Assembly: GCF_021032705.1 (NCBI RefSeq)
Contig: NZ_JAHVXI010000002.1
Location: forward strand, 310,001-374,000
Length of the DNA stretch: 64,000 nucleotides
From: Psychroserpens luteolus
GTDB lineage: Bacteria > Bacteroidota > Bacteroidia > Flavobacteriales > Flavobacteriaceae
Direction: 5' to 3'
Part shown: in pieces, positions 11,909-49,569 of the stretch
Layout: each line of letters opens with the position of its first letter
How positions within the stretch are numbered: position 1 is the stretch's first letter
Notes under the pieces: model-generated
Told to the model about the DNA's origin: nothing
The model's input: only the letters and a program-made list of their open reading frames with translations
Database searches by the model: none
Translations under genes and position numbers: made by a program

Positions 11909-14080
11909 ATGAAACAGCTAGTATTATTCTTATTTCTTATCAGCACATTGAGCTTTGCTAATACCGAAAAAGGCACGCCATCAAAACTTAAAAAAGTGAC
12001 CGTATATCTAAGCGGAGCACAAATTGAAAGAACTGCGGATCTTATACTTCCAGTTGGTACTACCCAATTTGTATTTGATAAATTATCGCCAAACATCCAA
12101 GAAAGTAGCATTCAAGTTTCTGGCCTTGACAACGCTACGATTCTATCTATCAATTACGGCATCAATTACTTATCAAAGCAAGATCGATCTGAAGACGTTG
12201 AACGTATTCAAAATGAAATTAAAGTCATTTATGATGATGTTCAAGCCCAAGACCATCTTATTGCTGGATATAGCGAAGAAATATACCTCATTACACAAAA
12301 CAGAGTTCTTGGAAATACCAATGAAGTTGTTAGTTTAGAAAAACTTAAAACTTTTGCTACATATTATAGAACTCGAACTACCGAAATTAAAGCTAAAATT
12401 TATGCCTCTCAAAAATTAAAAAGGGAGTTGAATGCACAAATTTCAGATTTAAAAAAACAACTCAACGAACTTAATGTTGATGACAAAATACAAACAGGTG
12501 AAATTAAAATCAAGCTCAACTCTGATATCAAAACCGAATTAAAACTTCGTATTACCTATAATGTTAGCAACGCTGGATGGTTTCCTATTTACGATATTAA
12601 AGCCGAAAAAATAAACGAACCTATCCAACTCGTCTATAAAGCACATGTGTATCAAAACACCGGAAATGATTGGGATAATGTAAAACTAACCTTATCTACA
12701 AGTGATCCAAATACGAATAATGTCAAGCCAGATGTGAATCCGAAATACTTGAATTTCATTAGTGCCAATAGCAACTATCGCAGCAATAGAGCAACAAAAA
12801 ATTACAATTACAAATACAATCCATTAGTAAAAACTGTATCTGGCGTTGTGACATCTAGCGACGACGGATTGCCTCTACCTGGAACAACTGTTATGGAAAA
12901 AGGAACAACCAATGGTACGCAAACCGATTTTGATGGCAAGTATTCTATTAAAACTCAAGGAGGTCAAGAGCTGGTATACTCATTTGTTGGTATGAAAACT
13001 GAAAGCTTGCCCATTCACTCTAGCATTATGAATGTTGTAATGGACACAGATGCTAGTGCATTAGAAGAGGTTGTAATCGTTGGTTATGGCGGCAAAAATA
13101 CTGCCGCAACAAAAAGGGTTTCGGCCGAAACTATAGAGAACAGACCAAATGCTGGTTTTGTACAAACATTGTCCGGACAACTACCTAGTCTAAACATTAC
13201 CTCCAATTCCGGGCAACCTGATGCGAATGCATATGTGCAATTAAGAGGAGTGGCCTCGGTAGATAAAAATGTACAACCTTTATTTATTGTTGATGGAGTT
13301 CCAGTAAATGCTTTTAGGTTTCGCGGATTAAATCCTAACGATATTGCATCTGTGGAGGTTCTAAAAGATGAGGGAGCGACTTCTATTTATGGTAATAGAG
13401 CCGCAAATGGTGTAATTGTAGTAGAAACAAAAAAAGGAAACTACACCTCTAATGGTGATGTCATAGAAGAAGGCATTACCAATACACGTTTTGAAATTAA
13501 TAAATCATACACGATACCAAGTGATGGTGATGTGACAGTAATTGAAATCGAAGATTATGAGGTGCCAGCAACTTATGCCTATTTTGCCGCTCCTGTTTTA
13601 AACGAAAACGTGTTTTTAACCGCTAAAATTGATGATTGGGAACAATACAATTTATTGCCAGCCGAAGCCAATGTATACTTTGAAGGCAGCTATTCTGGAA
13701 AAACTAATATCAATCCACAAAGCACAACCGAAGAACTCACCATCTCTTTAGGTGTTGATCCAAATGTGGTTGTTAAACGCACGCAACCAACAGATTTTAA
13801 AAAGAATGCCTTCATTGGTAGCAACAAAATCATTTCTAAGCATTATGACATTGAATTAAAAAATAATAAATCTTCAGCTATAGACTTGATATTATATGAT
13901 AGAATTCCAATTAGTCAAAACAAAGAGATCAAGATTGATGATATAGAAACTGGTAATTCTGAATATGATGATAAAAAAGGCATCTTAAAATGGACTGTCA
14001 ATATGCCAGCAAACAACAAAGAGACATTTAGTTTCTCCTATATCATAAAATATCCAAAGTATAAGCGGGTTAATTTATAG
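11909..14080 (+). CDS. MuiA-like DUF4140/DUF4139 protein with inserted carboxypeptidase-regulatory and TonB-plug domains
   Basis: The 723-residue protein starts with a signal peptide (1-17) and a DUF4140 domain (about 25-125, KKVTVYLSGAQIER). A helical stretch to about 195 follows, then the first part of DUF4139 (about 205-300, YNVSNAGWFPIYDI). Residues about 308-385 form a carboxypeptidase-regulatory-like beta domain (GVVTSSDDGLPLPGTTV, DFDGKYSI). Residues about 390-510 form a TonB-receptor plug of SusC type (EEVVIVGYGG, LSGQLPSLNI, LFIVDGVPV, VEVLKDEGATSIYG). DUF4139 resumes at about 530-723. No beta barrel follows the plug. The protein is probably in the periplasm or on an outer-membrane face. 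The MuiA name (mucoidy inhibitor) is from a poorly characterised homologue. Confidence 0.85.
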   Translation: MKQLVLFLFLISTLSFANTEKGTPSKLKKVTVYLSGAQIERTADLILPVGTTQFVFDKLSPNIQESSIQVSGLDNATILSINYGINYLSKQDRSEDVERIQNEIKVIYDDVQAQDHLIAGYSEEIYLITQNRVLGNTNEVVSLEKLKTFATYYRTRTTEIKAKIYASQKLKRELNAQISDLKKQLNELNVDDKIQTGEIKIKLNSDIKTELKLRITYNVSNAGWFPIYDIKAEKINEPIQLVYKAHVYQNTGNDWDNVKLTLSTSDPNTNNVKPDVNPKYLNFISANSNYRSNRATKNYNYKYNPLVKTVSGVVTSSDDGLPLPGTTVMEKGTTNGTQTDFDGKYSIKTQGGQELVYSFVGMKTESLPIHSSIMNVVMDTDASALEEVVIVGYGGKNTAATKRVSAETIENRPNAGFVQTLSGQLPSLNITSNSGQPDANAYVQLRGVASVDKNVQPLFIVDGVPVNAFRFRGLNPNDIASVEVLKDEGATSIYGNRAANGVIVVETKKGNYTSNGDVIEEGITNTRFEINKSYTIPSDGDVTVIEIEDYEVPATYAYFAAPVLNENVFLTAKIDDWEQYNLLPAEANVYFEGSYSGKTNINPQSTTEELTISLGVDPNVVVKRTQPTDFKKNAFIGSNKIISKHYDIELKNNKSSAIDLILYDRIPISQNKEIKIDDIETGNSEYDDKKGILKWTVNMPANNKETFSFSYIIKYPKYKRVNL

Positions 14081-47169: not shown

Positions 47170-49569
47170 ATGAAATATTATATTTTATGCATTGTGATAT
47201 CAATTTTTGGTATAAGCAATGCTCAAGATTGTTCGTTGACGTTATTAGGAGAAATTACTGATTTTCATGACAATACTCCTATAGCTTCAGCAAACATCTA
47301 TATCAAGAATTTTGACCGTTACATAATTTCTGATTTAGACGGTAAGTTTAAAATAGAAAACCTGTGCAAAGGAGAATTAACATTAGTAATTTCTCATGTT
47401 GGTTGTGAAACAAAAACAGTGACTTACAACATTGTAAGTGATGTCTATAAGTCTATTGTTTTAGAACACCATATTGAGGAACTGAATGAAGTCTCTATTA
47501 AAGGTAATAGCACAAAAAAGGAAACAAAAACGGCTCAAGAAACCGTAATCAAAGCAAAAACATTAGATAGGTATAGTTCTTTAAATTTAGGTGATGCCTT
47601 AAAAGAAGTATCTGGTGTCTCGTCTATCAATACAGGTAACAGTATAGTTAAGCCTATGATAAATGGTATGCATAGTAGTCGCCTTTTAATTTTAAACAAT
47701 AATGTGCGTTTACAAGATCAGGAATGGGGTATTGAACATGCTCCTAATATTGATATAAATTCTGCAGAACAGATTTCGGTTATTAAAGGCTCAGGAACAT
47801 TAGCTTATGGCGGAGATGCTATTGGAGGAATAATTGTGATTAATCCTTCCAATATTAGACTTAAAGATACCATATATGGAAAAACAATCCTTGGTGGGCA
47901 AACCAATGGTAGAGGTTACAGTATTGCGACAAACTTTAATTCAAATTTTAGCTCAGGATGGTTTGCGAACGTTCAAGCTAGTTTGAAAAAAAATGGAGAT
48001 TTTGAAGCACCAGATTATATCTTAACCAATACAGGCAATGTATCAAAAGGTATATCATTTCATGGTGGTAAGAAAAAGTTTGAAAGTGGTTTTGAATTGT
48101 TCTATAGTTATGTGAATAATGAAATTGGTATTTTACGAGCATCTCATATAGGAAATATTAGCGATTTAGTATCAGCAATTAATACGCAACAACCATTAGT
48201 TGTTGACGATTTTAGTTATGATATCAATTCTCCTAAACAAGAGGTTACTCATCATTTACTAAAAGCATCTTATTATCAGAGGTTTAAAAACTTTGGAAAA
48301 CTTACGTTGCAATATGATTATCAAAACAACCAACGTTTTGAATTTGATGTTCGCGTAGGTGACGATAGAAACAAACCAGCTTTAGATTTAACACTTCAAA
48401 CTCATACAGTGACTGCAGATGTTATTTTGGATGCAAAAAGTATATACAAATTAAATTTTGGTGTACTGGGACGTTATCAAGATAATTTTGCTAACCCAGA
48501 TACAGGTGTAAGACGTTTAATACCAGACTATCAACGCTATGATTTTGGAACGTATATCACTTCAGAATGGGGTATTAATGATCGATTAACCTTAGATGCA
48601 GGAATACGATATGATTTTAATAGAATTGATGCTAAAAAATTCTATCAAACTAGTCGTTGGGAAGAACGTGGTTATGATGAAGATTTTGGTTCAATTATTA
48701 TTGAAGATTTAGGAACTCAACTCCTGACTAACCCTGTTTTTAATTTCCATAATTTTTCTGTTGCTACTGGTATGAAATATGACTTGAATGATAACAGCTT
48801 TATCTCTGGAAATTATGCCTTAGCAAGTAGACCTCCAAATCCGTCAGAATTGTTTAGTGATGGCTTACACCATTCGGCCGCTAGAATAGAACTAGGTGAT
48901 TTACGCCTTGATCAAGAACTATCAAATCGTTTATCAGCCAGTTATTCTTACAATCAAAGCGACCTAAATGTATTAATTGAAGCGTTTTATAACAACATTA
49001 CGGACTTTATGTATTTACAGCCTACAGGAATTGAGCAAACAATAAGAGGTGCTTTTCCCGTTTGGAGTTACCAACAAACCAATGCTGCATTATATGGAAT
49101 AGACTTATCATTAAATTACAAATTTGCAAAGTCTTTAGATTTTACAAACAAATCGTCTTTCATAAAAGGAGATGATTTAAAAAATGATACGGCATTAATT
49201 GACATACCTGCATTTAATACAATAAATGAAATTAGATATGTCAACCCTAAATGGAATGACTTTTCAACAAGTTTAAAAAGTGAGTGGGTGCTTGAACAAA
49301 CTAGGTTTCCAGATTATAATTTTGAAACCTTTATTGCTACTACAAATGAAACTGTTTTGGTAGATATTAGTTCGCCTCCTCCTGCTTATCACTTATTGCA
49401 TTTTTATAGCAGTATTAACTTTAATATTGCTAAGCACACTAAGCTAAATGTAGCCCTATCTATTAATAACATATTTGATACTAATTATAGATCATATTTA
49501 AACAGACTGAGATATTTTGCTGATGACCTCGGAAGAAATGTGATGTTACAATTACAATTAAATTATTAA
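47170..49569 (+). CDS. TonB-dependent outer-membrane receptor
   Basis: This 799-residue receptor begins with a signal peptide (1-18). A carboxypeptidase-regulatory-like domain covers about 22-105 (LLGEITDFHDNTPIASANIY). The plug covers about 110-225 (LKEVSGVSSINTGNSIVKP, VIKGSGTLAYGGDAIGG) and a 22-strand-type barrel ends LQLQLNY. The plug's GGDAIGGIIVIN is the usual plug end. Ligand is not encoded in the sequence. The adjacent His-rich protein and lipoprotein suggest a metal or metal-chelate. Confidence 0.92.
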   Translation: MKYYILCIVISIFGISNAQDCSLTLLGEITDFHDNTPIASANIYIKNFDRYIISDLDGKFKIENLCKGELTLVISHVGCETKTVTYNIVSDVYKSIVLEHHIEELNEVSIKGNSTKKETKTAQETVIKAKTLDRYSSLNLGDALKEVSGVSSINTGNSIVKPMINGMHSSRLLILNNNVRLQDQEWGIEHAPNIDINSAEQISVIKGSGTLAYGGDAIGGIIVINPSNIRLKDTIYGKTILGGQTNGRGYSIATNFNSNFSSGWFANVQASLKKNGDFEAPDYILTNTGNVSKGISFHGGKKKFESGFELFYSYVNNEIGILRASHIGNISDLVSAINTQQPLVVDDFSYDINSPKQEVTHHLLKASYYQRFKNFGKLTLQYDYQNNQRFEFDVRVGDDRNKPALDLTLQTHTVTADVILDAKSIYKLNFGVLGRYQDNFANPDTGVRRLIPDYQRYDFGTYITSEWGINDRLTLDAGIRYDFNRIDAKKFYQTSRWEERGYDEDFGSIIIEDLGTQLLTNPVFNFHNFSVATGMKYDLNDNSFISGNYALASRPPNPSELFSDGLHHSAARIELGDLRLDQELSNRLSASYSYNQSDLNVLIEAFYNNITDFMYLQPTGIEQTIRGAFPVWSYQQTNAALYGIDLSLNYKFAKSLDFTNKSSFIKGDDLKNDTALIDIPAFNTINEIRYVNPKWNDFSTSLKSEWVLEQTRFPDYNFETFIATTNETVLVDISSPPPAYHLLHFYSSINFNIAKHTKLNVALSINNIFDTNYRSYLNRLRYFADDLGRNVMLQLQLNY

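Follow-up and report, generated by a model that had tools for sequence, protein, structure and literature searches.

The gene at 11909-14080 on the plus strand of the window, a 64,000-nucleotide stretch of the Psychroserpens luteolus genome, raises the question of what the N-terminal extension (NTE) and plug of a SusC-type TonB-dependent receptor are doing within the DUF4139 domain of a protein that has no β-barrel. The gene is a single continuous frame of 723 aa (here termed Q) with the DUF4140-coiled coil-DUF4139 organization of the MuiA family (TIGR02231), as given by the open reading frame list, Pfam and NCBIfam. Its features, all on the plus strand, begin with a Sec-type signal peptide, MKQLVLFLFLISTLSFAN (11909-11962), which was read from the sequence with no predictor and has no lipobox cysteine, followed by DUF4140 (residues 30-124, 11996-12280; Pfam E 1.2e-19), two long coiled-coil-like helices in the AlphaFold2 model (residues 94-188, 12188-12472) and the first part of DUF4139 (12545-12808; Pfam and AlphaFold2 model). 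The insert opens with a CarbopepD_reg_2 domain, the SusC NTE (residues 308-384, 12830-13060), recognized by Pfam, alignment, tree and Foldseek and bearing a PIHSS motif typical of the NTEs of DUF4139 proteins. It continues with a Ton-box-like motif, LEEVVIVGYG (residues 385-394, 13061-13090), identified in alignments and by comparison with the Ton box of Bt1763, of which LEEVVI (385-390) lies directly after the NTE, and with a full TonB-dependent receptor plug (residues 398-502, 13100-13414) placed by Pfam, trees and identities. The second part of DUF4139 (residues 516-717, 13454-14059; Pfam and AlphaFold2 model) completes the domain.

Judged by profile score, these domain matches lie far beyond chance. 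Pfam extends DUF4139 over residues 213-717 with the insert within it, and places CarbopepD_reg_2 at 310-390 (E 1.2e-15) and Plug (PF07715) at 398-502 (E 3e-16, 60.3 bits against a gathering score of 23.9). The NCBIfam model TIGR02231 (MuiA) scores 266.9 bits against a curated cut-off of 112.6, which places Q in the family, whose whole backbone it shares. The SusC model TIGR04056 aligns its positions 1-207 of 981 to residues 308-511 and scores 230.9 bits, below the whole-protein cut-off of 368.25 as expected for a protein lacking the barrel, while the SusC signature TIGR04057 reaches 49.7 bits against a cut-off of 46.2. The best PDB relatives by sequence are RagA (1.2e-39) and SusC homologues. 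Past residue 511 the frame re-enters DUF4139, and neither Pfam nor NCBIfam matched a β-barrel family in Q. Q is a member of the MuiA family and, having no barrel, is not a SusC receptor. As in SusC/RagA (TIGR04056), NTE, Ton-box-like motif and plug follow one another in the same order, and residues 308-515 share 61% identity with the SusC encoded at G000:C52 in the same genome (a SusC according to the profile match of the 744 aa covered); unlike SusC/RagA, Q carries the module internally rather than at the N-terminus, with DUF4139 on both flanks. The Pfam, NCBIfam and PDB sequence matches thus bear out the original prediction of a SusC NTE and plug within a barrel-less DUF4139 protein, and its insert coordinates, 12830-13440, were correct; it had quoted the string EEVVIVGYGG, leaving the Ton-box-like nature of these residues uninterpreted.

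No NCBIfam model of a type 9 secretion (T9SS) C-terminal sorting domain matched Q at E up to 1 and the protein presents only a Sec-type N-terminus, so that a periplasmic site is more likely than release from the cell; the earlier suggestion of a secreted decoy is not upheld. In a full-length AlphaFold2 model built from a shallow alignment of 21 sequences (mean pLDDT 66.4, pTM 0.44), block means are 77-87 for the NTE and approximately 60-92 for most of the backbone, and pLDDT falls below 50 over residues 385-479, 486-503 and 505-509, nearly all of the plug. The modelled NTE matches the SusC NTE structures 9hfj and 6ytc in Foldseek. An insert-only model from nine sequences (mean 33.9) carries no information on the plug, since even the NTE came out low. 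For the DUF4139 core no Foldseek match was found at E 0.001 or better, and adaptin-like matches at E of about 0.01 were not used.

Twenty relatives of Q were retrieved from public genomes. The NTE and Ton-box-like motif stand at the same place in all 20, and a recognizable plug is present in eight (L001-L007 and L010), the other 12 having a short linker or a remnant. The closest relative, L009 (93% identity over the core protein, 88% overall), has no plug. Flanking gene order is common to Q, L001, L005, L009 and L011; one neighbour is DCC1-like by Pfam, and the others we take to be MutS2-like, DUF1704-like and N-formylglutamate-amidohydrolase-like. Loci were paired with genomes by equal frame lengths (L001, L002, L004, L005 and L006 with G397, G389, G415, G045 and G417; L009, L010 and L011 with G393, G416 and G396), and for L002 and L005 the pairing was confirmed by sequence identity.

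The insertion site in the DUF4139 loop is, as far as the sampled sequences go, widely used. In the genus the gene is present in 9 of 23 genomes. In a family sample, DUF4139 was found in 39 of 149 genomes, and 23 of 38 DUF4139 proteins match the plug of Q at E 1e-3 or better, a count that includes L039 through its identical copy L005. L066 (G117:C28), a DUF4139 gene split over three reading frames and possibly a decayed copy or the product of sequencing errors, was left out of this sample and of the alignments. A phylum sample of 247 genomes contains 91 that match DUF4139, 78 of them above the cut-off; when matches with E above 1e-11 are excluded, 58 strong loci are new to the set examined, and only three of these have a plug match (L134, L139 and L178), most TIGR02231 members in this sample differing from Q in having a short linker or a plugless NTE at the site. 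Among 114 distinct DUF4139 proteins, a set enriched in kin of the window (116 before the copies L005 and L018 were dropped), Pfam at E 1e-3 finds CarbopepD_reg_2 in 69 and Plug in 32, or 52 and 30 of 57 in one batch and 17 and 2 of 57 in the other. The original prediction had noticed the insert, and its expectation that the insert would recur in many species holds in both samples; it overlooked how widely the loop is used, and also that plugs entered it separately from SusC-type genes, as described below.

What occupies the loop varies: NTE, Ton box and full plug; NTE and Ton box with a mini-plug roughly 55 aa long (PLYIIDG ... LK ... YGSRGxNGVVVITTK); NTE and Ton box; a Ton-box-like motif alone; or nothing. 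Among the relatives the plug accordingly is full, reduced to a mini-plug or absent. Three proteins (L050, L134 and L139) have a plug with neither NTE nor Ton box, and the loop of L152 is rearranged, a plug-like LAGKISGIQIRG standing ahead of LNEVVAVGYG. In the linkers of both L152 and L159 a plug-like motif (weak in L159) precedes the Ton-box-like motif, the reverse of the SusC order. Across 43 short linkers, with patterns that were picked after the linkers had been seen, a Ton-box-like motif occurs in six (shuffled mean 0.094, maximum 2 in 1000) and an LQGK-type plug motif in three (shuffled 0).

NTE and plug differ in their history. For the genus set, in a tree without L202 (motif not found) and L210, the NTEs of DUF4139 proteins form one clade (10 versus 29 other rows, support 100/98), and on this tree evidence the NTE was inherited together with the DUF4139 gene. 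The motif PI[HY][SAG] is present in 48 of 61 DUF4139 NTEs and in none of 30 others, a count that sets aside L210, a DUF4139 gene initially grouped with the others. A larger NTE tree calls for four changes of the DUF4139 label, two of which are forced, one of the two being the mislabelled L210; the long-branched receptor rows L202 and L204 fell among the DUF4139 rows.

For the plug, a single DUF4139 clade was rejected in each of three trees: 30 DUF4139 rows versus 34 (p-AU 5.25e-5, at least six label changes forced on starred branches), eight versus 41 (p-AU 2.3e-4, at least two forced) and five full plugs versus 41 with the Ton box trimmed (p-AU 1.1e-4, at least three forced). One ancient gain followed by losses only is rejected by these tests, which do not fix the individual gain events. 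The comparison rows are not pure SusC sets, because plugs of alpha-2-macroglobulins (A2Ms) and of a VWA-like protein are included: the 34 rows labelled TBDT contain three A2Ms (L025, L197 and L213), and the 41 rows (40 listed places and G000:C52) contain the A2Ms L261, L262 and L266 and the VWA-like L267 (= L238). The 30 versus 34 tree was built after removal of L210 (= L002), L039 (= L005), L205 (= L022) and of three rows shorter than 62 aa. Such short domains give weakly resolved trees, and L004 and L005 are long-branched.

Several placements recur. The plug of Q has as nearest relatives the G000:C52 SusC of its own genome and the orthologues of that gene, with support of 82/94 in the 30 versus 34 tree and of 96/93, with four such rows, in the five versus 41 tree; in the eight versus 41 tree its fork was unresolved and Q sat beside L004. 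In that same tree L003, L006 and L010 join SusC-type plugs of G416 and G417 (100/97), grouping instead with two A2M plugs in the 30 versus 34 tree (100/84), and L002 and L005 join SusC-type plugs of G389, G415 and G045 (92/87). L001 joins L023-type SusC in the 30 versus 34 tree (96/90), a branch not starred in the other two. In a profile check of six loci, L022, L023, L192, L196 and L232 pass as SusC and L238 fails. For all seven DUF4139 plugs whose genome was searched, the best-scoring SusC group is found in the same genome, and a SusC-type plug of that genome lies within 4 points of the best score. For four of the seven (L004, L005, L006 and L010) another DUF4139 plug outscores every SusC, so several share an origin; G393 and G396, whose DUF4139 proteins lack a plug, have the matching SusC groups as well.

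Rejection of a single clade, together with the presence of the best-scoring SusC groups in the plugs' own genomes, gives good support to import of the plug on more than one occasion, most likely by ectopic recombination between SusC genes and the gene of Q, which would proceed through their common NTE, Ton-box and plug sequences. The plug of Q and that of the G000:C52 SusC share about 68% identity in DNA (mean of nine 12-codon windows) and 66% in protein, so that the copying would not be recent or the donor would be another gene. In line with separate imports, Q is nested beside the plugless L009. The plugless linker of L009 and L011 is found also in L038, there alongside a mini-plug; plug loss in some lineages is therefore likely too. 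The separate histories of NTE and plug are, on these trees, a new point, and open-licence PMC texts yielded no paper on gene conversion of plugs. As a separate observation, the SusC at G000:C52 (~6.9-7.3 kb) and its copy at G393:C4 are 100% identical over 131 residues, unlike Q and L009 (taken as the G393 gene), which are only 88% identical.

Q is not alone in its genus in carrying a plug with no barrel matched. L078, in the same genome (G000:C11, ~916.8 kb), is an A2M with A2M and TED domains, a Ton box and a full plug, and in its kin L197 and L213, as in L078, the Ton box and complete plug immediately precede the A2M domain, about where, we assume, A2Ms carry their bait region. No barrel was matched on the parts of these three proteins covered (1107 of 1528 aa for L078). 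A single clade of the five A2M plugs is not readily obtained (p-AU 0.025), and we found no paper on an alpha-2-macroglobulin with a TonB plug in Bacteroidetes among open-licence PMC texts. L097:862-3120 (G000:C53, ~37 kb) is an M56/BlaR1-type protein with two tandem mini-plugs, each about 55 aa long, and likewise no barrel match. L238 (G396:C36, ~209.6 kb), whose contig also carries the G396 DUF4139 gene that lacks a plug, has a VWA-like stretch (VWA_2 below cut-off), an NTE and plug, and then TPR-like repeats and DUF2135, and it matched no barrel over the 952 of 1165 aa covered. These proteins resemble Q in their plugs and differ from it in their scaffolds, and they belong to no formal family with it; on their domain matches, at least three other scaffolds in the genus have taken up SusC parts, since plugs occur in A2M, M56/BlaR1 and VWA-like proteins. 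The plug match of L068 has a barrel. A further M56/BlaR1-type protein, L295:1134-3467 (G000:C11, ~336 kb), has two TonB C-terminal domains, and the window itself also encodes, at 47170-49569, a TonB-dependent receptor of the ordinary kind, complete with NTE, plug and barrel.

The reading we prefer, to which we give roughly even chances, is that Q is a periplasmic scaffold of the MuiA family in which NTE and Ton box form a handle for TonB and the plug, of multiple SusC-type origin, is an accessory. The handle would be gripped by the C-terminal domain of TonB, driven by the ExbBD motor, and this grip might pull or position Q, or Q might compete for TonB; the plug would be the SusC-matched part of the handle. 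The presence of the Ton-box-like motif in every relative, against a plug in fewer than half, favours a handle, and the genome has ten TonB_C matches in nine frames, nine of them over the cut-off. According to the available portion of the Bt1763 study (PMC7782687), the Ton box of this SusC protein (DEVVVTG) comes straight after the NTE and has no structure when the NTE is isolated, its mutation or removal causes a growth defect like that of SusD deletion, and deletion of the NTE gives no growth in 24 h. The NTE has been implicated in TonB interaction by a 2025 paper (PMC12204202), which cites a 2021 review. As far as the available text of that paper goes, PorE of the T9SS, a periplasmic or outer-membrane protein that is not a receptor, resembles Q in its NTE-like domain and is proposed to use a TonB-like force transducer; it differs in its scaffold, and the same text makes no mention of a plug. 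Following the logic of this literature on Bt1763 and PorE, we infer that NTE and Ton box, the most conserved unit of the insert, are most simply a TonB handle. Against this, an LxEVVV-like motif follows the NTE in three other proteins of the same genome in which no barrel was matched (L112 LNEVVV, L117 LEEVVV and L120 LDEIVL) and could therefore be linked to the NTE instead of marking a TonB site. Moreover, the plug is dispensable, as the relatives without a recognizable one indicate, and the plugs of L050, L134 and L139 come with no handle at all.

The plug might alternatively have no function, recombination having placed plug DNA in a tolerant loop where it then decays. SusC genes are numerous and share homology with the NTE that the DUF4139 loop carries, insert lengths vary widely, SusC parts occur in other non-receptor proteins, and among close relatives the plug is present, shortened or absent, as between Q and L009; the open frame by itself is no evidence for plug function, because the downstream domain needs the frame. 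Substitution rates within the plug nevertheless speak against such neutral accretion, which we consider rather unlikely. For L003 and L010, whose plugs are of the same origin, plug dN/dS is 0.14 (95% 0.066-0.26), with 0.057 for the rest of the protein, and the pairs L003/L006 and L010/L006 give 0.18 and 0.15, the three pairs being drawn from three related sequences and so not independent; L002/L005 gives 0.12 at saturated dS. These pairwise estimates, which include YN00 (without a value for several pairs), are rough because dS is about 1 and near saturation, though they are far from 1. A value of 0.625 for the 'plug' of Q and L009 (44 codons) compares non-homologous linkers and was not used. 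The core motifs RG, DG, YG and TK are invariant across nine aligned rows. In the one same-origin set tested, the estimates show the plug to be under purifying selection.

A broader proposal, which we hold only tentatively, is that the SusC plug is a portable cassette, which Bacteroidota would have copied repeatedly from their resident SusC genes, sometimes along with NTE and Ton box, into one and the same loop of DUF4139 proteins and into A2M, M56 and VWA-like proteins, its barrel-less copies being kept by selection as genome-matched mimics that would engage TonB, SusC barrels or agents that attack SusC. In a separate reading, the plug of Q would be displayed as a copy of that of the cell's own SusC and occupy something that acts on SusC plugs, such as a periplasmic protease, a protein from a phage or a bacteriocin, or a SusC barrel still empty while it is being assembled; the match of all seven plugs to SusC groups of their own genomes is consistent with such bait, as is the position of the A2M plug near the presumed bait region, and renewed import would hold the copy in step with the SusC of its own genome. 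Against this, 82 of the 114 family members are plugless by Pfam, and the resemblance to SusC could arise merely from recombination or from relatedness at the genus level, which leaves bait or mimicry improbable. Finally, fusion of the 5' end of a SusC gene to the DUF4139 gene in a chimeric contig, for which the plugless state of the nearest relative at the same locus might speak, is rejected as exceedingly improbable, in keeping with the original prediction, since the frame is continuous, the plug stands at the same site in relatives and across the family sample, the architecture and flanking order are kept, and the NTE of Q bears the DUF4139-type motif.

That a loop of Q holds the front module of a receptor without its pore suggests that receptor parts are used beyond receptors in a way that has drawn little notice. 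It is also unusual in evolution for a domain to be imported more than once between genes that are unrelated. In annotation, a plug-domain match in Bacteroidota is not always a receptor. If barrel-less plugs are functional, plug and NTE would be more than receptor parts, forming an interface that can be reused, whether with the TonB motor or with SusC, and the NTE requirement in SusC function, unexplained in the Bt1763 study (PMC7782687), would then be open to study in a soluble protein.
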